Assembly: GCA_013331615.1 (NCBI GenBank)
Contig: DUGA01000012.1
Location: 20,376 to 53,037 of the forward strand
DNA length: 32,662 nt
Direction of reading: 5' to 3'
Source: Candidatus Woesearchaeota archaeon
Lineage (GTDB): Archaea > Nanobdellota > Nanobdellia > Woesearchaeales > UBA10200
Part shown: one piece after another, positions 1 to 21,000 of the stretch
How positions within the stretch are numbered: position 1 is the stretch's first letter
Layout of the letters: every line of letters starts with the position of its first letter
Notes under the pieces: generated by a model
What the model was told of the DNA's origin: nothing
The model's input: the letters and a program-made list of their open reading frames with translations, nothing else
The model's database searches: none
Program-made: the position numbers and the translations under genes

Positions 1-3000
1 AAAGCTAATGACTATCCTGGGATTTATGTCTATTCTGACATATTTAGGGTTCCTCAAACACTAAACAGGAAGATAGATGTTTCTTTCTATTACAAGACAG
101 TGCTCTCTAAGATAAATTCAGTTAAAATAAAAGCAGAGATATTCTGGTATGCAGATAAAAACAATAATCTAGTCGATATAAATAATCCTCCTAAAGATCC
201 TTTACCTACTGTACTTAAGGAGATAATAGATAATTCAGACTGGAATAAATTCAGCATTAATGTAGGGGTTCCTGCAAACTTTGATTATGGAAGGATTGTC
301 TTATCAGTTGAGCAGTATGATAAAGGAGGTACAGGCACAGCATACTTTGACAAGTTTACCCTAGGAGAAAGGTATTATTGCGTTCCAGATATAGCAGGCT
401 TAGAAGATGACACTATCTGGGAAAATAATCTGGATGCGAGCAATAAAAAATCCTGTGAAAATGCAGGAGATAAAGAATTCGGAAAAGGCTTTACGTGGAC
501 AGGTGACCATTGTTGCGGAGATAAGGCAAATGAATTTTACACTGATGATGGATATAGTAAGGAAGCAGGATGCTGGAATAGCACAAAAGTTACGAATGGT
601 AGCTTAGTGCAAGATGATAACAGAGTATTAAACTTCAATGGTAAATTCTATTCATGTAATGTAGATGCAGGAGACAGATTATTTACAGATGTTAAAAATA
701 CAGATTATATCACTCCTACTCCATTAATAGAAGCAACCGATGCAGATGAAAATGTCAAATTATGCACGACGTTCAATAGCAGAAATAATATTGGCATAGC
801 ACAAGGATATTATTGCTCGCCAAATGGTGCAAATGGAAAGAGTATCTGGAAAAATGATGCAGTAAAAGATACAAAAGTTTTAGGTGCAGAGAGAGTAGCA
901 TATAAAAGAACAAAGCTCTCCAGCACAGCACAAAGCATGTTTGCATTAGTTAAAAATGAATGCTGCCCGCAAAATACTTGCTGGAACGGAACAGAATGCA
1001 TGCATGACCAGACAGGAATGCCATGGGAAAGGCCAAGCTATAACTACAGATGTGTTGAAAATGAGACAGGAAGTGTAGATTGGAGAGTGCCTGTCAAGAA
1101 AATATCATGGGATGGCATGCAGGAAGGATATTGTCCGACAGAAAGCTACTGTCTTGTGCCGAATGCAAACATCAACAGCATCAAATGCATAAAATCTCAG
1201 GAGTATATCGGCAACCATTATTGTGACGATGGGCAATGGAGCACTAGAACAAGACTTGTTGCAGAAGCATTGCTTAACTATACCTTAGATAATTCTCCAG
1301 ATGATTTTACATTATATTGTGATGAATATAAGAATGCTCTTCCAGATATAAAAAGCAATCCTGAGTATGTAGGAGACCAGCAGGCAACTGCTGAAGTATT
1401 CCTTACAAAAGCAGGAGCTACTCATGTTTGTGTTTTGGAAACAGGCGATGGCAAAAAGCTAGTAGGTACTGCTGCAGACGTTCCTATAGATGCAGAGCTA
1501 AATTTTGGAAGCGCTGCACAATCTAGCCAATCATCAGCTGCAAAAAAATTCCAGTTTATCTCTTTATTCAGTCCTAATCCTGATGCATGCAAGAACATCA
1601 TACTTAACAGCAATGAATTTACAAAATGCACAGGAGATACATCTTCAGGCGCGATCAATAGAAATATATGGGTCAACAACAAGACAAAGCTTGTGATATT
1701 CAGCAATAAGGACATAACTCTTAATCCAAAGCCTACAGCACTTAGCATACTCGAATTTTTAGTGAATCCTTTGCAGGCAACTATTAGCTTTATCAGGAAT
1801 ATCCTAAGACCTAAAATAATAGTAGCTAACATAAATCTTGATATCATCAAAAAGCCAAAAGATTTCACAAGATTTTATTTTGCAAAGTATAAGAAAGATG
1901 GCAAGGACCTTATGATAAGAAGCGTGATAGAAACACAAAGAGATAAAGACAGCTTGTTAGCAGAGTATGAAGGATATTCTACAGATATCTGCCAAAGAGC
2001 AATAGAAGCATATGATGATAAAAGAGTAAATAAAGATATCAATGACCCATTGGCAATAACAGATGACATCCAATGTTATCCTGCTATCAATACAAGTGAT
2101 TCTGCTAACAGCAAAATAATTTATAAGGTGGTGATGCAGAAGGATTCTAGAGAAGGCATTCCAACTAAGTTTTGGCAGGATCTGACAGGTAAGATAAGGC
2201 CTAAACAATATGCTGCTAGTGATGCTAGCCAATCTAATCTGCCTGTACCTAATGCAGAAATATTATTGCCTTTAGCGTTATATAGAGTTTCTGAGCTGAT
2301 GCAGCAAGGATTAAGGTTGACATCTGGCAAGAATACTGATGCTGTATCATATTACTGGAATCTAGATACTCATGAAGATTATGCAGGTATATTTGGGAGC
2401 GCAGGAGAATTGCAATACAACAAAACTTTTATGCTTTCAGACCTATATGCTAATCCAAAACGAGTTTCTGGCAATTATAATATAAGCTTGATAGTAATAG
2501 GCAGAGATGGCAAGTTCAGCTTTACTTCCAAGCAGGTTAATTTTGAATCTGTATTGGGCACAGGAATTCAGCAAGGATGCAAGAAAAAATTAGGGGATGC
2601 AAACAATGATAATAAGGTTGACCTAACCGATTATCCTCTTCTAAGAGCAATAGCAAAAAGCTGTATAGAAACTTATAACAAACCATTGACACAAGGAGCA
2701 GTCGTTTCTGGCGAGGGTTATGATCTGATGAATGAAACTTGCGTTTGCGCAGACATGGACCAAAAAGAAGGCCTTCAGTATGGCTCTCCAACAACTGCAT
2801 ATGATGTTGATCCACAGACAGATCCAACCAAGCAGGATGAGAATGAGTTTGTCGAAGTTTGCGGAAATCAAATATGCGATGCAGATGATGATGGATTTAT
2901 AGATCAGCCTAATATTGATAACTGTGTTGACGTTTCTAATCATGACCAAAGAGATACTGATCATGCCAGAGATTACGAGCTAAAAAATGCAGACCAGATA

Positions 3001-5901
3001 GATTTAGGCGCTGGAATCCCAAAATTGCTGAAAATAGAGAGAAGCATCGGAGATGCATGCGATAACTGTACAGATACAGACCATGACGGCTTTGGAAATC
3101 CAGGCTTTAAAATCTCTGGATGCGAGTTAAACCAGACAGAGTATGACAACTGCCAAGATAATAAATTTAATCCTTTGCAGGAAGACATGGATAATGATGA
3201 TATAGGAGATGCATGTGATGATGATATAGACGGAGACGGGAAAAACAATCAGGAAGATGGTGCTATCATCTATAGAGACTGTTCTTTAGAAAACAGTAAA
3301 AAATGCAGCGTATTTCAAGAATTTAAATCAGAATCTGGATGTTGCGAAAAAAGAAATATGTTCTTGCAGGCTGATGCAGAATTAAAGAATTCTTGCATGC
3401 AAAATGAGGTTGCAGTATTATGCCTATCTGGAGAATTAAATGCGCATGGAGCAACAGTTCTTCCTGCTACAGCAGCTCCTAATACTTGTCCTGCTGGATA
3501 TAAACCAATCTGTTATCCTAAAACTCCAGTCACAGGATTAACGAGCAATACTTGCAACACACAAAATTCAACAGTTGCATTGAACTTATCAGATGCACCT
3601 AATAATATGAATGCACATGCAGCAAGTAAATTATTACAATCATTAGATGCAAGAAGAAACATTTCAACTTCGATTTCAGGAAAATCTGTGGATCTAGGCA
3701 GCAGAAAGAAAATCGTTAAGGTAAAAGCTAATGTATGCGGCAAAAAGATTTGGTCAGGAAGTGTTAATACACCATGGACAGACTCAGTAAAATGGAAGAT
3801 TCAATTGTTTAACCCATCAAATATAGCTGCTGCAGACGGTTACAAAGAATTATCCCTAACACATACTTCAGGCAGTTGCCAAGACATAACTTTTGACTTT
3901 GGCGCAGGAGTTGACGCAGAAAAAATAGGGATAAGTTATGATTATACTCCTGCTGAAACCTGTTGGGACAGGATACAGAACAATCAGGAAACATTTATTG
4001 ACTGCGGCGGACCTAACTGCAATGCCTGCGTATGCGATTGGTATTTCTGCAGGCCTTGGTTTTATACAGGAAGAGAACCTGAAGCAGGATGGGCTAATTT
4101 TGGATGCGAGGGCAAAGGATGTAAAGGACGTGGTCCAGGCTTAACCTGCATTGCAGATATGGATATCCCTAGAGACCATACTCTAAGCCCTACTTCTCCT
4201 ATTTCTGTTGCTTGGTATGCAGATTATAATTTTAGGTTTGGAACTTTTGCTAATCCAATTCCGGAAAAACAATACAATACAGCATATACTAAATATGAAT
4301 ATTGCGGCAAAGCTCCAGGAGTGAATGTAATACTAGAAAGTGAACCTTATTTATCTTTGACAAGCTATGAGGAAGAAGTAGGCAGCATATTAACTGGCCA
4401 ATCAATAGGTTATAATACTCCAGTCTGCGTGCAGTCAGAGCTAGGCAATATGACATGTACATATGCAGAAAGATGTATGGCAAATGAATTCTGCTTAGTT
4501 ACATTATCTCCAGGAACAAATAACCTACATCTGGCAGAATGCGATTCATCTGAAGATTCTAAAGCATATTCTCAGAAAGTCTGCTGTACATTAGGCAATG
4601 AAATGAGAAAAACTTGCCTGACAAGAGCAAATCAAGAAACACCATGCACTAGAAAATGCGGTAACGGAATCAGAGAATCTCCAGAAAACGACGAGGGAGT
4701 TAATGAAGACTGCGATGGAAAAGATCTAGGTGGTAAAACACAATGCAACCAGTTAGATCCTGAATATGTTGCAGGAGACTTAAAATGCACATCTGGCTGT
4801 ACATATGATACTGCAGGATGCTTTGATCAAGAGCAGTATGACAAAGCACAAGCATTGCCTACATCTCCTAAATGCGGAAATGGTGTTGTTGACACGCAAT
4901 TTGGAGAAGAATGCGATGGAAGAGATCTACAAAGCAAAATTTTTTGCACTGATTTAAACAAAGGTGGAAGAAAAATTTATGAGACAGGCAAGTTAAGCTG
5001 CATACGCCCAGGAGAGTCTAATGCATGCAAATATAACACAATAAATTGCCGTGGAAGCTGTGGTAATAATAAGATAGATGCAAATGAGAAATGCGATCCG
5101 ACAGTAAATCCTGTTTTAGATTATACTTGTTATAATTATAGCACAATAACGCCTCTTATAAGAACATTTGGAATGATAACAAGATGCTCTGCTTTATGCG
5201 AGTATGATACTAGCCATTGTAATCCTGTAATCCCAGATCAAGATACAGATAGAAAATGTGTTCCAGACGGCAAATTGCAGTGGTGGAATGGAGAGCAATG
5301 CGATCCGTTATTAACCCCAATAGATACAACATGCGAGGAGCAAGGATATGGTGCAGGAACATTAGGATGTAATAGTGATTGCGGATATGAATTTGCAAGC
5401 TGTGGAGCTAACTTAGGGAATACATGCGGAAATGGCAATGTTGAAACACATGAAGACTGTGATAAAGGAGCTGATCTAACAGCAGGAACAGAAGATGATG
5501 TATTCAGAACAGATAAGTTAATTCCTATAAAAGAAAGAAGACAGGTGCATGCGATAAATCCAGACGGGACATTAAAAACAGATCCATATGGCTCTCCTAT
5601 ATGGACAGATGAATGGGTGGTAACAGGAACACAAAGAGTTCCAGAGACTTGTGTAGACCATGATTATGGAACAGGTGAACTAGGCTGCAACAATGACTGC
5701 ACAATAAATATTGAAGGCTGCGATGACTCTAGCTTATTATGCGGCAATAGGATAATAGATTCAGCAGAAGATTGCGATCCAAGCGCTGTTCCGGAGTTTA
5801 CTACTGATAAAGATTCATGCAGTGAGATCGGCTTAGGGTTTACAGGCGGAGAATTAAGGTGTACAAACAGATGTGAGTATGACCCAACCAAATGCACATG
5901 A
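1..5901 (+). CDS. Giant secreted Cys-rich multidomain surface protein (5' end missing)
   Basis: The reading frame is open from base 1, so the gene begins before the window; the visible part is 1966 residues. The GTG at base 100 is an internal codon and not a credible start. Domains in order (numbering of the visible part): a jelly-roll/carbohydrate-binding-like beta domain (about 1-125, with a closing AYFDKFTLGE strand); Cys-rich segments with paired YYC, CCGD and GCWN motifs (about 125-500); a mixed region; a dockerin-like or EF-hand-like loop GDANNDNKVDLTDYPLL near 865; TSP3-like Asp-rich calcium repeats (about 953-1085); a CGGPNCNAC motif near 1337, typical of the DCGGxxC repeat seen in many secreted microbial proteins; and six CGNG-type Cys repeats to the C terminus. 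There is no C-terminal membrane helix, so anchoring must be through the missing N terminus or non-covalent. Inferred role: extracellular adhesin or cell-envelope stalk. The exact function is unknown. Confidence 0.85.
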   Translation, partial: KANDYPGIYVYSDIFRVPQTLNRKIDVSFYYKTVLSKINSVKIKAEIFWYADKNNNLVDINNPPKDPLPTVLKEIIDNSDWNKFSINVGVPANFDYGRIVLSVEQYDKGGTGTAYFDKFTLGERYYCVPDIAGLEDDTIWENNLDASNKKSCENAGDKEFGKGFTWTGDHCCGDKANEFYTDDGYSKEAGCWNSTKVTNGSLVQDDNRVLNFNGKFYSCNVDAGDRLFTDVKNTDYITPTPLIEATDADENVKLCTTFNSRNNIGIAQGYYCSPNGANGKSIWKNDAVKDTKVLGAERVAYKRTKLSSTAQSMFALVKNECCPQNTCWNGTECMHDQTGMPWERPSYNYRCVENETGSVDWRVPVKKISWDGMQEGYCPTESYCLVPNANINSIKCIKSQEYIGNHYCDDGQWSTRTRLVAEALLNYTLDNSPDDFTLYCDEYKNALPDIKSNPEYVGDQQATAEVFLTKAGATHVCVLETGDGKKLVGTAADVPIDAELNFGSAAQSSQSSAAKKFQFISLFSPNPDACKNIILNSNEFTKCTGDTSSGAINRNIWVNNKTKLVIFSNKDITLNPKPTALSILEFLVNPLQATISFIRNILRPKIIVANINLDIIKKPKDFTRFYFAKYKKDGKDLMIRSVIETQRDKDSLLAEYEGYSTDICQRAIEAYDDKRVNKDINDPLAITDDIQCYPAINTSDSANSKIIYKVVMQKDSREGIPTKFWQDLTGKIRPKQYAASDASQSNLPVPNAEILLPLALYRVSELMQQGLRLTSGKNTDAVSYYWNLDTHEDYAGIFGSAGELQYNKTFMLSDLYANPKRVSGNYNISLIVIGRDGKFSFTSKQVNFESVLGTGIQQGCKKKLGDANNDNKVDLTDYPLLRAIAKSCIETYNKPLTQGAVVSGEGYDLMNETCVCADMDQKEGLQYGSPTTAYDVDPQTDPTKQDENEFVEVCGNQICDADDDGFIDQPNIDNCVDVSNHDQRDTDHARDYELKNADQIDLGAGIPKLLKIERSIGDACDNCTDTDHDGFGNPGFKISGCELNQTEYDNCQDNKFNPLQEDMDNDDIGDACDDDIDGDGKNNQEDGAIIYRDCSLENSKKCSVFQEFKSESGCCEKRNMFLQADAELKNSCMQNEVAVLCLSGELNAHGATVLPATAAPNTCPAGYKPICYPKTPVTGLTSNTCNTQNSTVALNLSDAPNNMNAHAASKLLQSLDARRNISTSISGKSVDLGSRKKIVKVKANVCGKKIWSGSVNTPWTDSVKWKIQLFNPSNIAAADGYKELSLTHTSGSCQDITFDFGAGVDAEKIGISYDYTPAETCWDRIQNNQETFIDCGGPNCNACVCDWYFCRPWFYTGREPEAGWANFGCEGKGCKGRGPGLTCIADMDIPRDHTLSPTSPISVAWYADYNFRFGTFANPIPEKQYNTAYTKYEYCGKAPGVNVILESEPYLSLTSYEEEVGSILTGQSIGYNTPVCVQSELGNMTCTYAERCMANEFCLVTLSPGTNNLHLAECDSSEDSKAYSQKVCCTLGNEMRKTCLTRANQETPCTRKCGNGIRESPENDEGVNEDCDGKDLGGKTQCNQLDPEYVAGDLKCTSGCTYDTAGCFDQEQYDKAQALPTSPKCGNGVVDTQFGEECDGRDLQSKIFCTDLNKGGRKIYETGKLSCIRPGESNACKYNTINCRGSCGNNKIDANEKCDPTVNPVLDYTCYNYSTITPLIRTFGMITRCSALCEYDTSHCNPVIPDQDTDRKCVPDGKLQWWNGEQCDPLLTPIDTTCEEQGYGAGTLGCNSDCGYEFASCGANLGNTCGNGNVETHEDCDKGADLTAGTEDDVFRTDKLIPIKERRQVHAINPDGTLKTDPYGSPIWTDEWVVTGTQRVPETCVDHDYGTGELGCNNDCTINIEGCDDSSLLCGNRIIDSAEDCDPSAVPEFTTDKDSCSEIGLGFTGGELRCTNRCEYDPTKCT
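4657..5895 (+). repeat. Six-copy Cys-rich protein repeat array (CGNG...ECD type)
   Basis: Six degenerate protein repeats fill the C terminus of the giant protein, at about 4657-4821, 4873-5049, 5059-5220, 5257-5403, 5425-5721 and 5740-5895. Each opens with a Cys-Gly-Asn-Gly-like motif followed by E-x-C-D (CGNGVVDTQFGEECDG is the clearest) and closes with C-x-Y-[D/N]-x3-C (CTYDTAGC, CKYNTINC, CEYDTSHC, CEYDPTKC). Copy 4 has lost the CGNG opening but keeps the EQCDP core and CGYEFASC end; copy 5 ends CTINIEGC and carries an insertion. They resemble the Cys-rich repeats of large secreted myxobacterial and archaeal proteins (DUF4215-like), probably disulfide-stabilised modules. The family name is from memory; the repeat pattern is seen directly. 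Confidence 0.8.
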
Positions 5902-6842: not shown

Positions 6843-9122
6843 ATGCTTAAAATAAAACTATCAAAAAGATCCCAGCTAACAATATTCATGCTGATGGCAG
6901 TAGTCGCATTAGTCATATTCGGATTTGTGTATTTCAGCAAAAGTGAGTCTGCACAGACACAGGTGAAAGCAGAGGAGGAAAAGCTTGTCACAAACAAGAT
7001 GGCTGCTTCCCAAATCGAGTTCTTTGTCCAGGCATGCTTAGATAAATCATTTCAGGAATCCTTAGAGTTTTTATCAAAGCAAGGCGGCTACATAATGCAG
7101 GAACAGAGAGGAAGCATGATACCTTTCCCTATTCCTAATGCAAATCATACAATCGATAACAAAACATATCTCATTGCATATAGGATCACTAGAGACCAGA
7201 AAGACTTATTGCCAAAATATCCATGCAAAGACGAGTCAGATTCGCCATTATTTTGTATGTATCTGAACGATGCTGTGCGATTTACAAAGCTCAATGAAAT
7301 CACTTATGGCATTACAAAAAATATTGTGGTAGATGGGCAAGGAGGTTATCTGACTCTTCAAAAACAGATAGAAAGATATGTTGAAAACCAGACAGTGGAA
7401 TGCATCAATTTCTCAAGCTTTGCCGGATTTAATGTGACATTTGGAAACGCAAGCGCAACAGCCACTATCCAGGACGAGCAGGTAAGTGTGACTTTATTCT
7501 TGCCTATCACTGTATTGATCCAGGATGTTTCTCCAATAATACAAAAATTTAAGTTTTCATCTGTGCAGAGAGCAAGGCTGAAAAAAGTGCATAATGCAGT
7601 CCAGGAGCTGTTGAATTTTGACAATAGAGACATAGATTTCAGATTAAAAGAAGATGGAGCAGTAGGAAAGTTTAAGAGTACAATATTCAGGAACAAAGAG
7701 CTTGGTCTTGAGATCGAAAAGGTCAATAATGTCAAGGAGAACGATGATCTCTTCATATTTACAGATGCAAAATCAACTTTAAGCGGTAAGCCATTAAAAT
7801 ATGCAGTGACCAGGGAGAACAGGATGCCTGCGCTTGATGTAATCAAACAAAGCTCAAAAAACCCAAGTTATGATATCCTTCTTAGCCCTGGGCAAAAGCT
7901 TGAGTTCAATCCAAGAGCATCTGACCCAGATGAAGATAACCTAATCTACAGCTATGACGGCTACTCAGATGATGAAAGATATCTTGAAAAAGCAAAAATG
8001 ATAGCTAGTGAGCTAACAGATTCCATGAAACAGCAGGAAGAGGACTGTGAAAACAGATGCGCATCTTATTATGTTACTGAAAATGATGAAGGAGAATACA
8101 TCATCACTGTAAAAGCAAGCGATGGAGAGTTTACAGATTTCCAAAATGTAAGAGTTAAGGTAAGCTCAAAAATATTAGCAGTGCCTAAAGCCTATAGCTT
8201 GTATGAATTTACAGGAGAGAAAACTAAATGGCTTTCAAATGAAGAAGCTGCATTTTTTGATGGAAAAGAAAGCTTATTGCCAGATCCAGGCGCAGAATAT
8301 AATTATATCTGGCTTGATAGTTATATCAAGCAGACAGATGGAAGCAGACAAAATGAGCAGGCAACAGATGAATTCCTTAAGGAAAAATGCATCGTAAAAT
8401 TTAGCGATTTTGTCAAGCCTTGTGAGGATGCTGGAAGCATATTAGATATAAAAAAGCCAGTTACACTTAACCCAATTGTCTATGCAAATACAGGAAGGAA
8501 GCCTGTGTTCAGCTTTGATGCAGAGCAAAAAACAGATGATGATGGCGAATATTATAGTCATAACATCACTTTAGGTGTTAAATTAATCTCTGAAGAGCAA
8601 AGCCAGGAGAGTGTTGAATCAACAGACATAAAAGTGAAAGAATGTTTGCCTTATGAAGTCAGTACATCATCTACTGAATATCCTGATCTTACCCAGACCT
8701 ATCCTTTTATGTATGCAAGAAAATCCAATCAGGCAGGATATGATACAGCAACAGTTGAGCAGCTTGATAATCCTTCTTCTCTTGATTTTAAAGGAGCACA
8801 TACTGGGCAGAGCAGCCAAAAAATAGGATGCTGCACAAAAGAAGGTATTAGAGAAGATACAAATAAGGTATGTTTTGAGTATAGCACAAGAATGCTAAAA
8901 GATGATCTTGAAGCAAACAGCTTTAATGCAGTCAATGTATTAAAAACAAAATTAGTGAAGGATTCTACTGCAGGAGATGGCAGTTTACAGGTTCTTGATT
9001 CTGTGCAGCCTACATTAAAAACTTGCGATACAAGCCCATGTGAAATAACATTTAGGCAATATTGTGGGCTGAGAGGAAATGCGTGCTCAGGAAATATAAA
9101 ATGGGAGATTGTTAATTCGTGA
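6843..9122 (+). CDS. Large pilin-like protein with cadherin/PKD-like ectodomain
   Basis: The 759-residue product starts with a class III (pilin-type) signal: basic residues to K8-R9, then S10-Q11 and a hydrophobic helix LTIFMLMAVVALVIFGF. Cleavage by a prepilin peptidase would be expected next to Q11 (inference). The ectodomain starts with a charged helix and FFVQACLDKSF, a segment I recall as common in DPANN surface proteins. At about 342-442 is a cadherin/PKD-like beta sandwich: LSPGQKLEFNPRASDPDEDN followed by EGEYIITVKASDGEFTDF, a typical calcium-binding-type fold. The C-terminal third has Cys pairs (IGCCTKEG, KTCDTSPCEI, YCGLRGNACSG). An AGAGGG site precedes the ATG. A pilin head with a very large cargo domain suggests a fibre-tip adhesin or minor subunit, not a bulk pilin. 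Confidence 0.8.
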   Translation: MLKIKLSKRSQLTIFMLMAVVALVIFGFVYFSKSESAQTQVKAEEEKLVTNKMAASQIEFFVQACLDKSFQESLEFLSKQGGYIMQEQRGSMIPFPIPNANHTIDNKTYLIAYRITRDQKDLLPKYPCKDESDSPLFCMYLNDAVRFTKLNEITYGITKNIVVDGQGGYLTLQKQIERYVENQTVECINFSSFAGFNVTFGNASATATIQDEQVSVTLFLPITVLIQDVSPIIQKFKFSSVQRARLKKVHNAVQELLNFDNRDIDFRLKEDGAVGKFKSTIFRNKELGLEIEKVNNVKENDDLFIFTDAKSTLSGKPLKYAVTRENRMPALDVIKQSSKNPSYDILLSPGQKLEFNPRASDPDEDNLIYSYDGYSDDERYLEKAKMIASELTDSMKQQEEDCENRCASYYVTENDEGEYIITVKASDGEFTDFQNVRVKVSSKILAVPKAYSLYEFTGEKTKWLSNEEAAFFDGKESLLPDPGAEYNYIWLDSYIKQTDGSRQNEQATDEFLKEKCIVKFSDFVKPCEDAGSILDIKKPVTLNPIVYANTGRKPVFSFDAEQKTDDDGEYYSHNITLGVKLISEEQSQESVESTDIKVKECLPYEVSTSSTEYPDLTQTYPFMYARKSNQAGYDTATVEQLDNPSSLDFKGAHTGQSSQKIGCCTKEGIREDTNKVCFEYSTRMLKDDLEANSFNAVNVLKTKLVKDSTAGDGSLQVLDSVQPTLKTCDTSPCEITFRQYCGLRGNACSGNIKWEIVNS

Positions 9123-9149: not shown

Positions 9150-9170
9150 TGGTTATTACTTAAATAATTT

Positions 9171-9399
9171 GCTAGGCGCCTTAATCTTTACAGATTAAAA
9201 GCGGCGGCTGCCTGCGAGCATTTACAGATAAGGTGGAAGAGTTGCTCCTCCCAAATTTTACGAAAATTTGATAAAAGTGTGCGACATGAAGTCGCACTAA
9301 CGGCTTAGCCAATGGTTTGCCTTGCCCGTCGCAACTTAGTTTAGTTACTATTATTTATGCTCGCAAAAATTGGCAGCCGCTACTTTTTAGGCGGCTAGC
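9171..9399 (+). ncRNA. GC-rich structured intergenic element, candidate non-coding RNA
   Basis: This fills most of the only gene-free stretch over 300 bases (9123-9497) and is visibly richer in G+C than its flanks. Direct base pairing: 9171-9180 with 9390-9399 (nine of ten pairs, one G-G mismatch); hairpin TTAATCT/AGATTAA at 9181-9198 with loop TTAC; 9204-9212 with 9372-9380 (GCGGCTGCC, perfect) continuing as 9213-9220 with 9358-9365 (TGCGAGCA, perfect) with a six-base bulge; hairpin CAAATTTT/AAAATTTG at 9252-9270; hairpin GTGCGAC/GTCGCAC at 9279-9297. The 3' arm can instead form a local hairpin (9375-9396). I do not recognise it as tRNA, SRP RNA or RNase P RNA. A degraded copy of the 5' quarter occurs at 22705-22760, so it could also be a dispersed structured repeat. 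Strand is assumed from the promoter-like sequence and neighbouring genes. Confidence 0.45.
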
Positions 9400-9437
9400 G
9401 TATTGATAATCATAAATTCCCTTTTTGCTAAGAAACA

Positions 9438-9445
9438 TTTATATA
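9438..9445 (+). promoter_or_regulatory. TATA box candidate for the 2831-aa giant gene
   Basis: TTTATATA within AAACATTTATATAGG predicts initiation near 9466-9470. That gives a leader of about 30 bases containing GAGGG at 9486-9490, seven bases before the ATG at 9498. Confidence 0.5.
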
Positions 9446-9497: not shown

Positions 9498-12400
9498 ATG
9501 CCAAGAAACAAGATAGGATTAGTAATATTTCTAGTGTTATTTACTTTGATAATTGCAGCTATGAATTCAGTTATTGTGTTTGCGCCTACTAATGAACAAG
9601 CATGCTGCATAAATCCGGAAGTGCCGTCTTTCTGCCTTGATGAAAAAGCATATCCAGGAACCCAAAATCCATATGCAGATATCACTGACTGCTGTTTTGG
9701 AGACCAAAGCTGTGCATCAAAATTCTTAAGAAAAGGAACATCCTGCAACTCACTGGATGAATGCAAAACAGGCGCAATTACCGGATGTTGTACAGATGAA
9801 TGTACTGCAGGAACACAATCGACATGCAAAGATTCATCAAGCTTTAGCGCAGTAAGCTGTGATAATGTAGCAAAATGCAGCACAGGATGCTGCCTTTGTA
9901 CTGAGAATGATAATCAAAAAATCGCTTTCAATCTGATCACAGAGCCAGAGTGCAAAAGCGATTGTCAAGATAGAGGATATGGCACTTATGACTTTAATCC
10001 GCAACAGCAAGACTGCAGGATAGGAACTAAACTTGCAGGCAAGACTGTCAAAGGAAGAGTTACTGATACATCAGGAGTGCCATTGGAAAAAGCAACTGTA
10101 ATCCTTGAAGGCATAGCACAGTATGAGACATTGCCAGACGGCAAGTTTGAAATTGCAGATGTGCCTCCAAAAGCAGATCCCTATAAGATAAAAGTAATAA
10201 AGTCAAGGTATCTCTCAAATTTTACCTCATTTACTCTTGTTTCAACAGATGCAGAAAAGATAATAAATTTTGAGCTTGGACGGGCATCATTTGGGACAAT
10301 CTCTGGCATTATAACTGAAGATGGAGATCAATTAAAGCCTGTGCCTAATGCAGTAATAAGCGTAAGCGGCATTGGCCAAGATACAACTTATTTATCAGAT
10401 GAGAAAGGCGAATATTCCTTATTGTTTCATCTAGCTGGGCAGCCAATAGATTATATAATTCAAGTTTCTGCACAAGGATATGTTTCAAAATCAGAGATAG
10501 TTACACTACCTTCTTCTATGGGTAAGAATGATGTATTACAAGATTTTAGATTGCCAAGAAAAAAGCCAGGAATATTAAGGGTAGTAGTAAAAGAAATTAA
10601 AGGCAACATAGAAATTGGTGTAGTTGGAGCAAAGGTAACTCTTAACACAGGATTGCAAAGATTTACTCTAAGCGACGGAAGTGTAGTATTTGGCGGAGCA
10701 GATAGATTCTCTGATAATCTCTTTGAAGGCAATTATACTGTAGATGTGTTTAAGGGAAATTACCTCTCTAATAGGACAACAGACTTTGATGTAAAGCCAT
10801 GGTTTGAAAATGTTCTTAAGGTAATTCTAGCAAAGGATAATGACCTATGCCATATGCAGGGAAGTACAAGGCCGCTAATATTTGAGGAGTATATCAGAAA
10901 TGGCACATGCTCGCAATTAAACAAGCCATACTACTGTCAAAACGGAGACCTAGCAAACAACCTAAATGAAGTTGTCTATACCAGATGCCAAGGCAGAGAT
11001 AATATTCCAGGGACAGTAGATGACTGCTGCCCAGCAAATGAAGAATGCCAGTCAACAGGATATTGCCTGCCAAAAGATACTGAATGCACAAGCTCATGCA
11101 CATATAAAAACAGCTTAGTGTGCAGAAGCGAATGCAATGGATTAGCAGGCTGTACTTTTCCAAATGATGTTGTAAATAGGTCATGCAATGGAAAACTTTC
11201 CGGAATTGATATGATACAATATGGCGTAGATGCAGAAGGCTTGCCTATGAATGTTATCTGCTGCAATAACTGGCCACCAAGAACATCAAAAAAAGAAGAT
11301 TGCACTAACAATGCAGATGATGACGGAGATACAAAAAAAGATTGTGAAGATGAAGATTGTTATCAAAAACAATGCCATTCTACGAACAAAAACAAAATCT
11401 GCCAAACATATAATTTTGGTGATGATAAAGGCAAATTAGGAGAATGCAGAGCAAAGCCATGCACTTCTGGCGAGATTACAGCTGATAATGCAGGATGCTT
11501 ATGCAATGGGGTAGAGACAATAGAAGGAAATTTTTGCTGCGATCTTGACAATAATGATATTAATCACGGAAGATATACTACAAATGCAGAAAATGATTTT
11601 ATAAATTCTCCATGCGGCAATACTCCATGCAGATTAGCTCAGCCAAGGCAAGGAACATGCTGCAGGGCATGCAAAGAAACTACTACACCGGGCAGCTTGT
11701 TAAGATTAGGAGAGAATGCCTGCAATGCACTAGGTATCAAATGCTGCTTGCAATGTGACATAACTCCAGAGGATGTTTGTGAATATAGGTCATTATGTCC
11801 TGCAATTTTTGATACGATCGAAACAGATCCGACAAAAACAACAAATGTAAGGTGCGCAGGCAAATGCAATAAAGTTCAGGAATGTGTTGCAAATAAGCCA
11901 ATATATGATTTTACTTATAACTCGCCTTTATGCAGATGTGGAGAGCGAACTTTCCTTGTGCCTTCATCAGATGCATTTAACAATAATTGCTGCAGAGATA
12001 CAGCAGATGGACCATTATATGTCACTAGGCAAAATTGTCTTGGAGCACCAGAGCTTGGAAAGATAACTGGCTATGTAAAAAAATCACCTGACCTAACGCC
12101 GATAAAAGATGCAACAATCTGCAGTTCGCCAACTAATTGTTATGAGACAACAGATGAAAATGGAAAATTCGAGATAAGGGTGCCGTTTGGTGCCCAGCGT
12201 TCTTATTATGCAACAAAAAAAGGATTTAAGGATTATACAGTGTTAAGCAAAAATCCTAATACTGCATCATCTATTACAGGAAATCAACTTAAGCAAAGTG
12301 TAATCATTTCAAAACCTCCTACTTCTGGAGCATCAAGTACGAGTGTACCAAGCTCAAGCGCAGCAGCACTTCCTCCTAATATATTAGAGCAAGACTTAAC

Positions 12401-15400
12401 TCTTGGTACCATAAAGCTAACAGATTTTGTGTTAGAGCAAGATATAGATATCTGCACAGAAGTATTGCCTCCTGTAAAAAACTTTACAGTTAATCATACA
12501 TTAGGAGAAGTTAAAAAGATCAAGCTCAAATGGGGCGTCCCTATCGAGTGTATCAATAATATAATGGGGTATAGAATAACCAGAACACTTGTGCCTATTG
12601 TGCCTAGCACAGGTTCTGGCAGCAGTACATCTTCATCTACATTATCAGGCAGCGCACAACCAGTTGAACTTCCTTTTGTACCTCGCACTAAAGATGGATA
12701 TCTTGATATTGATGTCAATTATGACACTACTTACAGCTACGAAATAAAAGTGCAATACTTAGGCAAGGAGCAATTAAGTGAGGCAAACACTTCAAGAATA
12801 AGAGTTGGTGAGCTTAAATGCGAAGGGATGTTCAGGAATAATCAGCCTGTACAGTTCTGCGCATTAAATGTAAACAATAAATTAGTTGATAAGAGAGTAT
12901 GTAACACCCAAAACAGGGTGATAGAGCAAGTTATAGAAAGCTGTGATCCAAATACTCAAGTTTGCTCAGGGCCTAATGTAGCAGGATTAGCAATCTGCAA
13001 AAACCTCTCTCAATGCAGCACAAGAAAGCAGAATGCATTTCCGTTTGGGCTGTATTTCGAGAAGGAAAAATGTTTAGGAACAGATTCTTTAGGCAATGTT
13101 GACTATAGCAATAACTGTTTTTTCGATTACTATAAATCAGATGAAGCAGATCCAAATAAGATATATGATGTTGTTGAAAGGTTTGGGACAGAAGTAATAA
13201 ACCATCAGGTAACTCCATTTGATAAATGCCTTAGCTGTCCTGTGTCACAAGCAAGCAAGATGAGCTGCTTTAATTATAGGTCAGAGTATGCATGCACAAC
13301 AGATAACTGCAATCGCGGCAATGGAGCATGCAGCTGGATAAATGCAAGCTTCAGCGAGTTTGGGTTAGGCTATTGTTATGCAGAAAATTACACAGGCAGT
13401 GATAATTGTGATATGTGCAGCGAAAGTAATGATGTATTCTTCAACACAAGATGCAGCCAAAAATTATGCTCAAAATTAGGAAGATGTTTTGCAGCAGAGC
13501 AGGAAGCAGCGTGCAAAAAATGTTCTGAAGCAAGATGCGAGGATCTCAAGACACAAGAGTTATGTGTATCAGGAAGCGCAGACGGAGAGATCAAGATAGG
13601 GAGAGATGCAATTATCAACTACAGCAAGGATGCATGCAGTTTAGGCAGGTGCAAATGGCAGGCAGATAAATGTATAAAAGATGGAAATGCAAATGATGTG
13701 GATGATTGTGATGTAGTTGAATTAAGAAATATAGATCCTGATTCAGGAAGATTACTTGAAGCATGTAAGCATGATAATAATGCAACCGTGACAAAATTAG
13801 ATAGGCCTCGAGCATTATCATTGATAAACAGGCAAACCCAAGATTTATTTTTTGCAGTTGAATCAAATGAGCAAAATGCATATACCTTCTCTTACTGCAT
13901 AGACAAACAGGACAAAGCAATTAAATGTTATCCGGGGGCAAACACTTTAGGCGGAGGGGAGATTGCATATGGTGGTAAAAAAGAAGTTAAGCTTCAAGTA
14001 GAAGATATAATCAGAAGCTTAGAAAAGCAAGGATATGATAATCCAGACTTAGATTACTCAGACACTTATTACATCAGATTTTTCTCAACAGATAAATTCT
14101 ATAACCAAGAAGATGTAAAAATATTGCCTGTGTATATTGATATATGGGCGCCTAAGCTTACATCTAGTATTATTAAAAATATAAACATGGAAGGAACTCC
14201 AGTCAATAAAGACACAAAAAGCCAGCTATTGTTTACAATAAGCAGTAATGAAGATGTGCATTGTAATTTTGAGGATTTAAGGATTAAAGGCATCGGAAGC
14301 ATTGATGCAAGCAAGACAATAAGAATCCTGACAAAGAATGATAAAGATGAAGATCTTTATGATGATGAGTTCAACAGCCAGTATGTTGTGAAAGATGGGT
14401 TATATAGCTATAGAGTAACCTGCCACGATAAAAGCTTTAACTCAGCAGAAATACTTTACGATGGAGATACTGCAGTACATATAGATGCATTCGGTGATAT
14501 AACTGTCCTTGAGCCTGTGACTAAACGAGTTTTTAATGATAACAATGTATTCTTTAAGGTCAAAACAACAGACTCAAGCATATGCAAACTAGCAAGTCTT
14601 CCTTCTGGGAATACGCTTACAGGTGCTGATGCTGAGTTCAAGTCAACAGACAAGCTAATACATACTTTAACTTATCCTGTAACGGTGCTGAATACAGACA
14701 GGGTTTCTGGCACTGATTTCAAAAGCCAGCATTATCCAGACATTTCTGGTTCAGGGTATGGTGTCAAATGCACTTCTATTTTAGGGGAGCTAGAAGATCT
14801 TGAAGCATTTGAATTTACAGTTGACACGACTCCGCCAAATATTACTTTAGTCATTGCATCTAATCAAATAGGAGGCCAGTTAAACTTTGACAAAGTTAAT
14901 GATGACCAGTTTTTTAAGGAATATGGAGATACTATCGGATTAAGCATCTTATGCCAAGACACGCAGATACAAGGAAGCGCTCAGGTATTTGGAGCAAAGC
15001 CAAGCTCAGAAAAGATATGCATGACAGAAGACATTACAGGATGTGATAATCTGCAAAGGGATAAGTTTGTTTCAATAACTTCTGTTGGCAGCATTCAGGA
15101 AACCCAACATCTTTGCTTTACATGTGAAGATAAAGGCGGCAATATTGCGCCTGTAAAATGCGGAGATATAATTGTAGATAAGCAAGGGCCTCAATTTATA
15201 TTCACTGTTTATGACGATTCTGTTACAGCAAATACTGCAGTAAAAATTCTGAAAAGACAGCCTTTAAACTCTAAGTTTTACAGGGCAGAAGTTATTTCTA
15301 CAGAAAATCTAACTGGAGATGCAGTCTTATTATTCAGAATCAAAAGGTATGATAAAGATGGGTTCATTGAGTATGCGCCAACAATAAAAATTCAGAAAAA

Positions 15401-17993
15401 GCTAAACCAGCTTGCAAATCCTTTAAGAGTAGTTTATGAAGGGAGTTTTGCTGTCCCATTGGCAGAGGAATTCAACAATTTAGATAATAGGGATACTGTT
15501 CAGATTGTGATAATAGGCAAAGATAAATTCAATAATCAGGGAAGGTTAGCGCAAAATTATACCTTTGATACTACTTCACCTAAAGCTCCTCTCTTCAACC
15601 AATATGAAAATACAGCAACAAGATATGCAGGACAAGGGATATTTGACCAGACAGGATTTGAAGCAGATAAGGTTGCTAATAGGAATATAATAATTGAAAG
15701 AGGAAACAGACCAAATATAGTGAGAGTGAAAACTCTTAATGTTAGGGGAGTGACTATGAATACGTTGCAAGAGGTCGGTGTTTCTAGAGCACAGAATCTA
15801 GTACAGCAAACACAAGATCAATCTCAACCTTCTCAACCATTACAAACAACAACTTCATTGCCACAAACTACAACAGCACAACCACAAACCTCTCTTTCAA
15901 GAAAATCTTTTTCAACCTATTCGACACCAGATCCTGTCCTAAGAAAAAGAATAAAACTAGATGCTCTACTTGAAGGTGATAAGTTAAAATTAAAGGATGC
16001 TGCAGATTTAGACCTAACAAAGTATTATCTTGAATTCCCTGACATCAAACTTCCGACAAAAAGATTCTATAAGATAGAAAAAGTTCTTGATGGCACAGAG
16101 GTTGATACTATCAAGCAAAGAATTGTAAATAGGTTGACATTGAAACAAAGCCACTTGGCTGCACAAGCAACAAATAAGGCAGCTAATTCAGCAGATAATA
16201 AAAATAAAGGCAGAAATGACGACGATGATAACAATGATAGAGATAACAAAGGTAATAGTAATGCTAATAACGATCATGATAACAACAATAACAGAAACAT
16301 AGTCAGCTCAACCGGCAGGGTAGTTCTTAACTTGATAACAGGAAACGCAGCAGGGGATGCAACAACTAATAGTGATACATTAACAAGCTCAACGACAACT
16401 GGATTTATATTATCTTCTCCCTCCTTAACTGCAGTTGAGCAGCAAGATCCAAATTCTAAATTTATAAATATCGGCAGGACATTATATGGATTGGAAACTG
16501 TTAAAGAGGAAGACCTTGATACGCAGTCACAGTATAAAAAAGATCTGGTCGTCAATGTTTATGAAAGAGCAGAGCCTTTGGGATGGTTCAATGCTAATAT
16601 GGACTTGCCAGAAGGCAGCACTTGGTTCTATGCATATGCAATCGATGAGAATAATAACCTAGGATTGCCTACAGGCGTGAAGAAAGTTATCAAGGACACT
16701 AAGGCTCCAGAGATACTTCATTATGGGCCAAGTGAAAACTCAAAAATCAGCGCAAATTTAGGAGTTAATGTATTTGCAACATTCACTGATCTTAATTCAG
16801 GCGTGAAAAGAGAGACAGCTGTATTGGAGATAGATGGCAAGAGGCATACATGCGATGACCCAGATGATCCTGTAGTCTGCATTGGAACAAAAACATTCAC
16901 AATCTCAATAACACTTCCATTAAAACAACAAGGGCAATACACTGCAAAAGCAAGTGTGTCAGATGTATTAGGCAACTCACCACAGCCATTTGTGTGGAAT
17001 TTTGTTATCAACAATGATGCGCCAAGCAATATCAGGTCAGAGGCTTTAGCAGGAGCTTGCATCCAGAACGATAAATGCTATGTAAATAATACAAAGCCAG
17101 AATTTAAGCTGCAGTATGATGCTTTGCCAGAAGTTAACATAACTGCAGAGTTTAAGTCTGATATTATTACAGCATTAATCCAGAAGATAAATGATTTTTT
17201 CAACATACAGCCTGCGCAAGAGTTGACTGAAGGCCAGCATTCAATCGATGTGATGCATAAAAATTCAATAACATCAGCAGAGTATCCTAATTTTGTCAAA
17301 TTTGTTGTTGATACCACTTACCCTGATGTATCGATAGATAGTATAGCACCAACAAGCTCTAAATCAATAAATATCACTGGCAATTATACTGAAGATAACG
17401 TATATGAGATCAGGTTTTCAGGAGATATCAAGCAGACAGAGCCAATGACATATAGAGAGCTTCCTACTGATCTGCTTACAGACGATGCTGGAAAATCACA
17501 ATATCTGTTCATCAAGAATGTTGAGCTAGATATAAGCAATGCAAGTAAGCCTGGAAAAGAAGTGAAGATCACTATAATAGATAAGGCAAACAATGCTAAG
17601 GAAATCACTCTTACTGTGTATTATGATGTTATTCCTCCTAATTTTGAAAATGTAACAGTAAAGACGATAGCAGCTGGCAAAAAAATATTTGCAACAGAAG
17701 GCAAGAATGAGACTGCGTATAAGACAAATGATGTAAATGTAAAGATCTCTGGCAAAAGCACAAAATCATTGTATAGCATGATGCTGGCAACAGAGTATAT
17801 CACTAAAGTTGTCAACATTGACAGCACTGGATTGAATTTTGATGTTGATCTTGAGCTCATTAACACATTATCACAGACAAAAGAAGAGCATGTGTTATTG
17901 CAGGCAGAAGATGATGCAGGCAACAAACAGTTTTATTTCATGCTTGTAGAGCTTGATATACATAAACCAGAGGTTGAGATAAAGATCATATAA
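9498..17993 (+). CDS. Giant secreted multidomain surface protein (2831 aa)
   Basis: The start at 9498 is preferred over the in-frame ATG at 9477 because GAGGG sits seven bases before it and it gives a clean Sec-type signal (basic PRNK, then hydrophobic 5-25). Regions (from 9498): Cys-rich segment with CCINP, DCCFGD and CCTDECTAG motifs; three carboxypeptidase-regulatory-like beta domains (about 182-262, 266-340, 357-445) of the GRVTDxxGxPLxxATV type; more Cys modules, including EDCTNNADDDGDTKKDC at 600 (the CxNxxDDDGDxxxDC metal-binding-type motif); a fourth regulatory-like domain (about 853-925); a Ser/Pro linker; an FN3-like domain (about 990-1107); another Cys-rich stretch; several Ig-like repeats; a Gln/Ser/Thr linker (about 2098-2145); an Asp/Asn-rich linker (about 2228-2270); then further Ig-like repeats to the end. 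No C-terminal anchor is visible. Likely an extracellular adhesin or stalk; no catalytic motif was recognised. Confidence 0.85.
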   Translation: MPRNKIGLVIFLVLFTLIIAAMNSVIVFAPTNEQACCINPEVPSFCLDEKAYPGTQNPYADITDCCFGDQSCASKFLRKGTSCNSLDECKTGAITGCCTDECTAGTQSTCKDSSSFSAVSCDNVAKCSTGCCLCTENDNQKIAFNLITEPECKSDCQDRGYGTYDFNPQQQDCRIGTKLAGKTVKGRVTDTSGVPLEKATVILEGIAQYETLPDGKFEIADVPPKADPYKIKVIKSRYLSNFTSFTLVSTDAEKIINFELGRASFGTISGIITEDGDQLKPVPNAVISVSGIGQDTTYLSDEKGEYSLLFHLAGQPIDYIIQVSAQGYVSKSEIVTLPSSMGKNDVLQDFRLPRKKPGILRVVVKEIKGNIEIGVVGAKVTLNTGLQRFTLSDGSVVFGGADRFSDNLFEGNYTVDVFKGNYLSNRTTDFDVKPWFENVLKVILAKDNDLCHMQGSTRPLIFEEYIRNGTCSQLNKPYYCQNGDLANNLNEVVYTRCQGRDNIPGTVDDCCPANEECQSTGYCLPKDTECTSSCTYKNSLVCRSECNGLAGCTFPNDVVNRSCNGKLSGIDMIQYGVDAEGLPMNVICCNNWPPRTSKKEDCTNNADDDGDTKKDCEDEDCYQKQCHSTNKNKICQTYNFGDDKGKLGECRAKPCTSGEITADNAGCLCNGVETIEGNFCCDLDNNDINHGRYTTNAENDFINSPCGNTPCRLAQPRQGTCCRACKETTTPGSLLRLGENACNALGIKCCLQCDITPEDVCEYRSLCPAIFDTIETDPTKTTNVRCAGKCNKVQECVANKPIYDFTYNSPLCRCGERTFLVPSSDAFNNNCCRDTADGPLYVTRQNCLGAPELGKITGYVKKSPDLTPIKDATICSSPTNCYETTDENGKFEIRVPFGAQRSYYATKKGFKDYTVLSKNPNTASSITGNQLKQSVIISKPPTSGASSTSVPSSSAAALPPNILEQDLTLGTIKLTDFVLEQDIDICTEVLPPVKNFTVNHTLGEVKKIKLKWGVPIECINNIMGYRITRTLVPIVPSTGSGSSTSSSTLSGSAQPVELPFVPRTKDGYLDIDVNYDTTYSYEIKVQYLGKEQLSEANTSRIRVGELKCEGMFRNNQPVQFCALNVNNKLVDKRVCNTQNRVIEQVIESCDPNTQVCSGPNVAGLAICKNLSQCSTRKQNAFPFGLYFEKEKCLGTDSLGNVDYSNNCFFDYYKSDEADPNKIYDVVERFGTEVINHQVTPFDKCLSCPVSQASKMSCFNYRSEYACTTDNCNRGNGACSWINASFSEFGLGYCYAENYTGSDNCDMCSESNDVFFNTRCSQKLCSKLGRCFAAEQEAACKKCSEARCEDLKTQELCVSGSADGEIKIGRDAIINYSKDACSLGRCKWQADKCIKDGNANDVDDCDVVELRNIDPDSGRLLEACKHDNNATVTKLDRPRALSLINRQTQDLFFAVESNEQNAYTFSYCIDKQDKAIKCYPGANTLGGGEIAYGGKKEVKLQVEDIIRSLEKQGYDNPDLDYSDTYYIRFFSTDKFYNQEDVKILPVYIDIWAPKLTSSIIKNINMEGTPVNKDTKSQLLFTISSNEDVHCNFEDLRIKGIGSIDASKTIRILTKNDKDEDLYDDEFNSQYVVKDGLYSYRVTCHDKSFNSAEILYDGDTAVHIDAFGDITVLEPVTKRVFNDNNVFFKVKTTDSSICKLASLPSGNTLTGADAEFKSTDKLIHTLTYPVTVLNTDRVSGTDFKSQHYPDISGSGYGVKCTSILGELEDLEAFEFTVDTTPPNITLVIASNQIGGQLNFDKVNDDQFFKEYGDTIGLSILCQDTQIQGSAQVFGAKPSSEKICMTEDITGCDNLQRDKFVSITSVGSIQETQHLCFTCEDKGGNIAPVKCGDIIVDKQGPQFIFTVYDDSVTANTAVKILKRQPLNSKFYRAEVISTENLTGDAVLLFRIKRYDKDGFIEYAPTIKIQKKLNQLANPLRVVYEGSFAVPLAEEFNNLDNRDTVQIVIIGKDKFNNQGRLAQNYTFDTTSPKAPLFNQYENTATRYAGQGIFDQTGFEADKVANRNIIIERGNRPNIVRVKTLNVRGVTMNTLQEVGVSRAQNLVQQTQDQSQPSQPLQTTTSLPQTTTAQPQTSLSRKSFSTYSTPDPVLRKRIKLDALLEGDKLKLKDAADLDLTKYYLEFPDIKLPTKRFYKIEKVLDGTEVDTIKQRIVNRLTLKQSHLAAQATNKAANSADNKNKGRNDDDDNNDRDNKGNSNANNDHDNNNNRNIVSSTGRVVLNLITGNAAGDATTNSDTLTSSTTTGFILSSPSLTAVEQQDPNSKFINIGRTLYGLETVKEEDLDTQSQYKKDLVVNVYERAEPLGWFNANMDLPEGSTWFYAYAIDENNNLGLPTGVKKVIKDTKAPEILHYGPSENSKISANLGVNVFATFTDLNSGVKRETAVLEIDGKRHTCDDPDDPVVCIGTKTFTISITLPLKQQGQYTAKASVSDVLGNSPQPFVWNFVINNDAPSNIRSEALAGACIQNDKCYVNNTKPEFKLQYDALPEVNITAEFKSDIITALIQKINDFFNIQPAQELTEGQHSIDVMHKNSITSAEYPNFVKFVVDTTYPDVSIDSIAPTSSKSINITGNYTEDNVYEIRFSGDIKQTEPMTYRELPTDLLTDDAGKSQYLFIKNVELDISNASKPGKEVKITIIDKANNAKEITLTVYYDVIPPNFENVTVKTIAAGKKIFATEGKNETAYKTNDVNVKISGKSTKSLYSMMLATEYITKVVNIDSTGLNFDVDLELINTLSQTKEEHVLLQAEDDAGNKQFYFMLVELDIHKPEVEIKII

Positions 17994-18086: not shown

Positions 18087-21000
18087 ATGCCAAAGAATTA
18101 TCTTTCAAAAAGAGGTGAAAAGCTAGCTGATAGCATAGTTAAAGTAGCAGCAGCCAGATTATTTCTTTTAAGATTTTTTCTTTTATCTCCAAGATTATTA
18201 ATCTTATCTACAATCATTTTAATCTTATTATTGCTTATCTCTTCAGCTTTTGTATCTGCAAGCCATGGAGCAAGCTGCTTAGAGATCACAAACAGACGCC
18301 CTATATTCCAAGTTAATTTTGATGAGCCTAGCAACCTGAGCCTTTTTGAACTCATAGCAATAAAAGGCAATGCTAAAACTCCTGTGCCTGTAACTGTTCC
18401 AGATCTCTTGATCAATTTTTCCAAATATTATGAAGCAAGCGTGAATGATCTATTAGACCCAAGCGTAAAAGATTATATCTTAAAGCTTAAGGCAATTGAT
18501 TTTTTTGACAATGAAAAGGATTATGAGCAGTGCTATCATTATGTTCCAAGAGCTACTAAGATCACTCTTGTAGAGCCTGAGTTTGGGTATTCTTCAGTCA
18601 AGCCATTTACTGTAAAGATAAAGACAGATGCATATGCAACATGCAGATACAGCATAAACACAGATCTTAATTATGCAGATCCTAATCCTGCACAATCGAT
18701 GGCGGCTTTTAAGGAAACAGCTTATGTGTTAGAGCATACAGTAGATATTAAGGCAGAATTATTTCCAGACAATAATACAAATATAGCAATTAAGCTATAT
18801 GTAAAATGCAATCGCACAGATGGAGAGATTAATCAAAGGTCAGAAGCTTTTGAGTTTCATGTAGATAGCACAAAGCCATTCATACAAGAGGTTAGGCTTT
18901 CTCCCCAAGGCGGAAATAAAGTCTCAAACAAGCCATTGCAGACAACTGTGATGGCGACAACAGATGAGGCAGCAAGATGCAAGTACAGTCTAACGGGCAT
19001 AGCAGATTATAATCTGATGGAATCAAGATTTGATGATTATAACAGCTTCTCAGCAGCAAGCACTTCACGTAGCCATAGCTTGAATTTTCCAGGATTAGAA
19101 GATAAGAAAACATATAACTTAAAGATTGCTTGCGAGAATAAAGCAAAATTAATCTCTGATGTAAATGATTTTATGTTTGAGACAGATAAGAATGCAGATG
19201 ATACGATAACCATATTAAAGCCAAACTTCACGCAAATATCTAAACTGCCTGTAGAGCTTGAAGTATTGACAAACAGGGATGCACAGTGTGTAATAAGCAT
19301 GCTGCCAGCGCCTGGAAGCCCGATTCAACCACATAACACTAATCTATTAATCCATAAGCTGAACAGTATTCCTGGAATAAGCGCTCAAGGTAGATATAAT
19401 TTTACGGTGCATTGTGATTTCTTAAAGTCAGGCGGAGCAAAAGCGCCAAAAGAGCTTGCATTAAATCTTCTCTATGACTCACAGGCTCCAGAGATTCTTA
19501 ATTTTACAACTCAAAATACATGCATCGCAAATCAGGTGCATGTCAAATGGACAGCAAAAGACCTGATATCTGAGATCACTGGATATAGGTATAAATTAAA
19601 CGCAAATACAGTTGAGCTCTTTAACTGGTCAGAAACAAGAAAATCTGAAGTAAGGCTTGACGTTTCAAGATATGATGTGAATGCATCTGCTGATACAACT
19701 TATACTATAATAGTGGCAGCTAAAGACAGCGCAGGCAACCTAGATGCTGTAGGCAAAAAAAGCCAGAAATTAGAAGTGTCTAATCCAGGTAAAGCAGAAT
19801 GCCTTGAAACTATTGCTCCAAAAAGTAATCTAACTAAAGAGTTTAAGGACAATGCAGCATATATCACAGTCACATGCCAGGATTTAGGCGGCTCTGGATG
19901 CAATCCTGAAAGCTACCTCTATAATGCAGTTGATCTAAGCGCTTCTTGTTCTGCTTCACAAAAATATACAGCAGCTGTTAAAGTTACCAATACTGCAATC
20001 TTCTGCTGGAAAGTTAGCGACCATGCAGGAAATAGCCATCAAGGAGAAGAAAAAATAATCCTAAACATAGATTCAGATGGTGATGGAATTCCAGATAGTA
20101 TAGATAAATGCAGCAACACTCCTAAATCTGAGAAAGCAGATTCTATAGGGTGCTCTCCAAGCCAAAAAGATGATGATAATGATGGCATCCCAAATGACAA
20201 AGACATCTGCCCAGAAACAATACAAGAAGCAATTGATGCTCAGGCAGTAAATTCTTCAGGATGCTTAAAAGACAGTGATAATGACGGCATGCCAGACTAC
20301 TGGGAGATGAAGTATAAGTTTGATATCAATGATCCGAGCGATGCAAGTAAAAACCCAGACCTTGACGGAGCAAATAATCTTCAGGAATATTTACAAGGCA
20401 CAGACCCATTAGTCTCTGATGTTGACTCAACAAAAATCCCAGATAAAGATGGAGATGGAGTGCCAGATACTCTTGATAAATGCCCAGAAACTACAGCAGG
20501 AGATAAGGTAAATCCTCAGACAGGGTGCTCAACAAAGGACATTGACAAGGATGAAGATGGAATGTCAAATGAGTGCGAGCAAAAATATGGTTTAGATAGT
20601 GAGAATGCAGGTGATGCTGAAGAGGATAAAGATAATGATGGCTTAATTAATACAGAAGAATGCAATTTTGAAGGATGCGAGCTTGAGCTGGATCCAAATA
20701 ACCCAGATACAGATGAAGATGGATATAATGACGGCAAGGAATATGAACAAGATACAAGCCCTTGTGATGCTGAAGATAAGCCGGCATCTGCAATATTGCA
20801 GTATATATTGCTAGGAATAGGAATCCTCTTTTTATCTACAGGAATAGGATATTTAGCATATAAGAAATTTGTTTTAAAAGAATCTATAAGCTCTTCTGGC
20901 TATGGTAATAGAACTTCTAAAGAATATAAATTAGGTTCTTTAGAACATCCTCAAAGCATAAAAACAAGTTTATCTCAACAGTCTAAAGCAGTAGCTCAAC

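Follow-up and report, generated by a model that had tools for sequence, protein, structure and literature searches.

What is the self-complementary element that lies between genes at this locus, directly before the largest gene? The locus sits in the window, the whole stretch of 32,662 nucleotides of Candidatus Woesearchaeota DNA that was analyzed, and the original prediction offered several readings of the element: a new structured RNA, a mobile repeat, a part of the leader region of the large gene, or a transcriptional boundary. The element extends from 9169 to 9402 (234 bp, + strand, which is also the family orientation), with subfamily ends TTGCTAGGCGCC and GGCGGCTAGCGTA that were placed by eye against other copies and are uncertain by a few bases. 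The predicted architecture is present, while several of its details require correction. The outer 10-bp stem with a single mismatch is seen in both the sequence and the folds (9171-9180 pairing with 9390-9399), followed by a 6-bp local hairpin, TTAATC..GATTAA, in the fold (9181-9198). The inner stem (9203-9221 with 9357-9381) had been described as 17 perfect base pairs and instead contains 18 Watson-Crick pairs and one G-U, while its bulge is as predicted, with the six bases AAAATT on the 3′ side (9366-9371) and a similar bulge retained across copies. The pairs inside this bulge form stem P2 (9213-9221 with 9357-9365) and those outside it stem P1 (9203-9212 with 9372-9381).

The interior is built from short hairpins and two conserved boxes. 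The boxes, GTTGCTCCTCC (9241-9251) and CCCGTCGCAAC (9325-9335), make up the 5′ and 3′ parts of stem P3 and are exact in 114 and 117 of 123 copies, respectively, a conservation that is partly by construction because copies L068-L153 were retrieved with the exact two-box pattern. Hairpin hp1, CAAATTTTACGAAAATTTG (9252-9270, 8 bp), is followed by the linker GATAAAAG (9270-9277), which is invariant among the nine A1 sequences, and by hairpin hp2, GTGCGACATGAAGTCGCAC (9279-9297, 7 bp). These are the only two that reach the 7-8 bp predicted for at least three hairpins, the third being the 6-bp hairpin above. An hp3-like hairpin, ACGGC..CCCGT (9300-9329), folds on both strands. The element is GC-rich only relative to its surroundings, since its GC content is 44.4%, whereas that of the window is 36.8% and the 300 bases on either side reach 33-34%. 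It is also predicted to fold stably on either strand (z = -6.3 on + and -9.0 on -), and none of 200 shuffles per strand was equally stable. That it fits no known RNA class was borne out, as searches of the window with Rfam (gathering and permissive thresholds) and ARAGORN gave nothing; no family reached its cut-off, and the best sub-threshold hit was a snoRNA with E = 3.

Beyond the window, the element is one copy of a dispersed, palindromic, gene-less family with dozens of copies per genome. Its own genome (G000) has 19 places that match it at E ≤ 0.001, and matches are found in four of 60 genomes comprising its own and relatives: G000, G001 and G002, all from one genus, and G042 from another family. 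The exact two-box pattern identifies 86 stretches in species-representative genomes, where all records are Candidatus Woesearchaeota. We collected 123 distinct copies from four Woesearchaeota genomes, and the counts per genome are lower bounds, with at least 57 copies in G002, at least 47 in G001, at least 17 in G000 and at least 2 in the fourth. Cores and linkers are mosaic between copies, and the consensus folds of core classes a-c (labels a-d are text rules of our own) show weak interior structure. Protein coding was rejected because the reading frames, judged by eye, shift between copies. A viral, plasmid or phage origin was likewise rejected, since two patterns had 0 matches in viral contigs and searches of plasmids and phages also came back empty. 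An extra inner hairpin, GGTTTGGAGACGTAACTCCAAACC, is present in four copies, L071 (5690-), L022, L036 and L040, and the arms of L022 and L040 are drawn from different subfamilies. L135 (180-860) has the same frame of stem and bulge with a wholly different core.

The family carries the traces of transposition. Both terminal repeats, of one of two types and with at most 3 mismatches, are found in 45 of the 114 copies with enough flank; 21 copies have type A ends (GTATGTGCATAG) and 24 have type B ends (GTATTTGTTTAGC). Target duplications of 8 bp, identical at 7 or more of 8 positions, flank 24 of these 45 two-ended copies, compared to 0.25% in a control that joined left and right flanks from different copies. 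Occupied and empty orthologous sites can be compared in five cases (L029, L103, L123, L126 and L139), and at L130 and L144 two copies apparently inserted independently at one site, within about ten bases of each other. Copies of the exact type-B end number 73 in G002, 8 in G001 and 2 in G000, which suggests a burst in a single lineage, that of G002. Terminal inverted repeats, a duplication of fixed length, variation in occupancy, and the lack of a transposase gene in combination with the ends of an autonomous transposon are the features of a MITE. For the family, the reading as a mobile repeat is therefore right, supported by the target duplications, the terminal repeats and the empty sites.

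The identity of the transposase can be approached through these ends. Among 336 genomes of the order, 36 encode IS66-family transposases, and ends and duplications were sought around 24 of these transposases. In other Woesearchaeota, the IS66 transposon L308 has GTATGTGCATAGCT at both ends and an 8/8 duplication, corresponding to type A, and L314 has GTATTTGTTTAGCT (13/14 between its ends) and an 8/8 duplication, corresponding to type B; the proteins of both exceed the NCBIfam cut-off for IS66 transposases. Duplications of 8/8 also flank four further loci (L302, L309, L313 and L319), whose ends are related or of other kinds, and L296, where the repeat is poor; the remaining IS66 loci among the 24 examined gave no convincing end pair. 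In the window's own genome, a truncated IS66 gene (L293) lies at the end of contig C62, with a type-B-like right end (3 mismatches) immediately past its stop codon. The type A and B ends of L308 and L314 with their 8/8 duplications, together with the L293 remnant, strongly suggest, and do not prove, that IS66 moved the MITE family. Like IS66 insertion sequences in their single-transposase form, the MITE has repeats starting with GTAT/GTA and 8-bp duplications, whereas it differs from them in being gene-less and about 220-260 bp long, and in that the ends of the window copy are its own. No IS66 gene is present in G001 or G002, and G000, G001 and G002 contain no intact IS66 donor. An autonomous element with the same ends was rejected for the genus, where the single candidate among the loci examined was an 852-bp pair of type-B ends without a duplication (1/8); the exact type-B end list, inspected by eye, holds no pair 1-4 kb apart. 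Transposases of PF01609 are present in 2 of 6 genomes without linkage to the element and were also set aside.

Where does the window copy stand within this family? Its ends are of neither type A nor type B, with the 10-bp outer stem present, and its candidate target duplications, TAAATAAT (9161-9168) and TTGATAAT (9403-9410), agree at only 6/8 positions, which is weak evidence because 3.8% of mismatched control pairs reach 6/8 or more. An empty site was not found for this copy, as G001 gave no match and G002 is occupied. The orthologous site in G002 contains a degraded copy with the same kind of arms and a different core. The window copy, whose ends have diverged, is an old insertion that G002 has too. 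Between these two orthologues, 14 pairs of P1 and P2 are unchanged, 4 are changed on both sides and 1 is broken, so that the compensatory changes sought by the original prediction are present at this site. Three other orthologous occupied pairs (L016/L093, L032/L048 and L057/L047) also keep their arms and differ in their cores; L032/L048 has 2 double-sided changes, L016/L093 and L057/L047 have none, and 3 pairs are broken in total. Because orthologous copies keep their arms yet differ in core, the cores appear to have been exchanged after insertion, probably by conversion. In the sequence of events that we propose, an IS66 transposase supplied in trans would have mobilized the MITE, a burst of copies would have followed in G002, and the copies would then have swapped their inner cores, probably by gene conversion.

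In the window copy, the core is made up of two hairpins joined by GATAAAAG, and the same core recurs in a longer multi-hairpin domain. The exact first part of the core is present in 4 of 352 genomes of the order, while R1, a model built on the core piece, has matches in 29 of 336, and a longer domain of five hairpins surrounds many of these matches. In A2, an alignment of 16 long forms from six families, 96.3% of the cells pair and 16 of 34 pairs have a double-sided change, with 50 such cells compared to 11.6 in shuffles (0/500), a result that the slid control flatters because only R1 matches with the complete set of five hairpins were hand-picked as long forms and part of the structure derives from the consensus of these forms themselves. 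The consensus fold of A2 has 55 GU and 14 AC mismatches, but of the GU, 32 sit in two invariant columns belonging to a doubtful helix. In Rfam searches of six long-form loci, the only matches apart from weak noise were tRNAs, in a single locus and outside the long form. R2, a model of the five-hairpin domain, was run on 371 genomes from across the phylum and has matches in 67, of which 65 belong to the window's order and 2 to other orders of the class. The window copy, which was outside the training set, matches R2 with 41.9 bits (9238-9339, + strand), in an alignment that covers hairpins 1 and 2 and a portion of 3; lacking hairpins 4 and 5, the copy shares the module without being a full five-hairpin member. 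Hairpin hp1 is common to the domain and hp2 covaries between families, whereas core classes a-c gave 1 match to R2 in 86 loci. In G042, the long form is found inside IS66-type MITEs, and 5 of 9 of these have 8-bp duplications of at least 7/8 (controls 0/72). The window core contains the front part of this structured domain, which is widespread in the order.

The stems of the family are maintained across copies. P2 was located in 113 of 117 copies, where 967 of 1017 cells are Watson-Crick pairs in 38 strand pairs, some of which are one stem shifted in register; five low-scoring arms among the 117 belong to chimeric or truncated copies, which were counted in the arm alignment, while 4 were dropped from the P2 analysis. 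Since P1 and P2 stayed paired by compensatory change, the fold probably matters, whether it acts as a DNA hairpin or, in transcripts, as RNA. Which strand would act as RNA is less clear from the mismatches, as GU and AC number 23 and 40 in P1 and P2 and 193 and 238 in the wider arm alignment, counts that do not favor + as the RNA strand and, if anything, lean to -. The prediction of a new structured RNA is thus upheld in part, by a covarying domain without an Rfam match, and in part not, as the GU and AC counts single out no RNA strand. It is possible that selection does not act on the fold and that the stems covary only because the palindromic arms correct each other, through conversion or template switching; the absent GU/AC strand bias, the mosaic cores and linkers, and the differing cores at orthologous sites would all agree with this. 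We nevertheless hold it to be on the unlikely side, because most copies keep an asymmetric bulge between P2 and P1, about 5-7 bases in size, that such correction would tend to erase, and because the hairpins of the wide-spread domain also covary between families.

A role for the host has to be judged from the surroundings of the element. The gene beside it (9498-17993) encodes a 2831-residue protein with carboxypeptidase-regulatory-like domains and is followed by a gene (18087-21977) for a 1296-residue protein that matches thrombospondin-3 and, weakly, fn3; on these domain matches, both are probably surface proteins. Two further genes of the window (100-5901 and 6843-9122) encode proteins of 1933 and 759 residues with no Pfam match at E ≤ 0.001. 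The TATA-like sequence that had been noted upstream of the element is an AT-rich stretch, while a TATA-like box, TTTATATA (9437-9444), lies downstream of the element and is kept in the G002 orthologue. Because this conserved box separates the large gene from the element, the element probably precedes that gene's predicted promoter, and the proposed action in its leader is unsupported. That the element is primarily a structured RNA useful to the host, as a leader, terminator or small RNA, and repeated only by chance, appears improbable. The stable fold, the compensatory changes at the orthologous site, the conserved inner boxes, the covariation of the domain across six families and the placement between genes (2 of 100 copy midpoints lie inside a long ORF) would be expected of such an RNA, yet orthologous sites occur without a copy, neither strand shows a GU excess, the conserved box lies downstream of the window copy, and the orientation to neighboring genes is mixed, leaning antisense (-- 41, -+ 21, ++ 20 and +- 17 among 100 examined). 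A mover other than IS66 that also makes 8-bp duplications is very improbable; the genomes richest in copies do lack an intact IS66, with many assemblies incomplete, whereas both end types recur exactly on IS66 transposons with 8-bp duplications. The best explanation, and in our view a highly likely one, is that the element is a MITE, most likely moved by IS66 in trans, present here as an old insertion with a probably exchanged core. This reading draws on the target duplications and empty sites of the family and on terminal repeats that match those of IS66 transposons.

In other genomes, the domain is also found in tRNA genes. Of 20 R2 loci given to Rfam, 5 have the match overlapping a tRNA or lying at most about a dozen bases away (L273, L275, L281, L284 and L285), and at L281 (1493-1653) Rfam reads a single tRNA through the R2 match (161 bases). 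Of 16 loci picked by eye from 30, 8 yield a tRNA spanning the junction once the insert is deleted in silico; each locus was given many deletions, with the 8 tRNA-less loci as the sole contrast and no random-deletion control. The junction is at the T-loop in L280, L286, L289 and L292; in L284 the tRNA is detected without removing the insert, and the tRNA model of L283 is doubtful. Long direct repeats flank 6 of the 42 R2 matches on a hand-made list (L240, L242, L253, L254, L273 and L276), compared to 0/42 in the control. By our reading, L240, L242, L254 and L273 lie at tRNA genes: each is a short hairpin inserted at the end of a tRNA and bounded by direct repeats, 17-29 bp long, of that end. 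A group I intron was rejected: among 12 loci that carry the domain within or close to a tRNA gene, none matches the Rfam group I model at E ≤ 0.5, and the window gave no group I match either. These insertions outside the window are a lead and not a result on the window copy, and where the domain interrupts tRNA genes it may be an undescribed mobile tRNA intron. More tentatively still, and with considerable doubt, we raise the idea of an undescribed mobile structured RNA in Woesearchaeales that would occupy three settings, namely the inside of tRNA genes (T-loop and anticodon loop), tRNA ends with long target duplications, and the cores of IS66-type MITEs; it would be an intron-like unit that hitch-hikes on, and swaps between, DNA transposons, with the window copy as a reduced form.

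Bacterial palindromic repeats such as bcr1, ERIC and Correia are short, gene-less, multicopy sequences between genes that fold into long stems. The family described here is likewise short and gene-less with many intergenic copies and long stems, and unlike them it has an archaeal host, two families of IS66-type ends, and exchangeable cores, one of which is shared with a domain of tRNA genes. Compared to archaeal tRNA introns (PMC4090602; PMC3293823), the likeness is that the domain lies inside tRNA genes and that tRNAs emerge when the insert is removed; the window copy, in contrast, is not in a tRNA gene. For the tRNA-gene copies, the comparison with bulge-helix-bulge (BHB) tRNA introns covers insertion inside tRNA genes. 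Archaeal group I introns also occur in Woesearchaeota, with rRNA sites reported (PMC6125680), whereas the 12 domain loci searched have no group I match. The family is undescribed in the literature covered on Woesearchaeota and DPANN MITEs, archaeal IS66 MITEs (including PMC2246112), Woesearchaeota group I introns and tRNA introns, a scope outside which preprints and most subscription papers fall. For these uncultured archaea, on which the literature covered has no MITE report, the result defines how a high-copy MITE ends and which transposase probably moves it. If the module of the MITEs and the tRNA genes is one mobile RNA, it would open a direct route to the origin and spread of archaeal tRNA introns.
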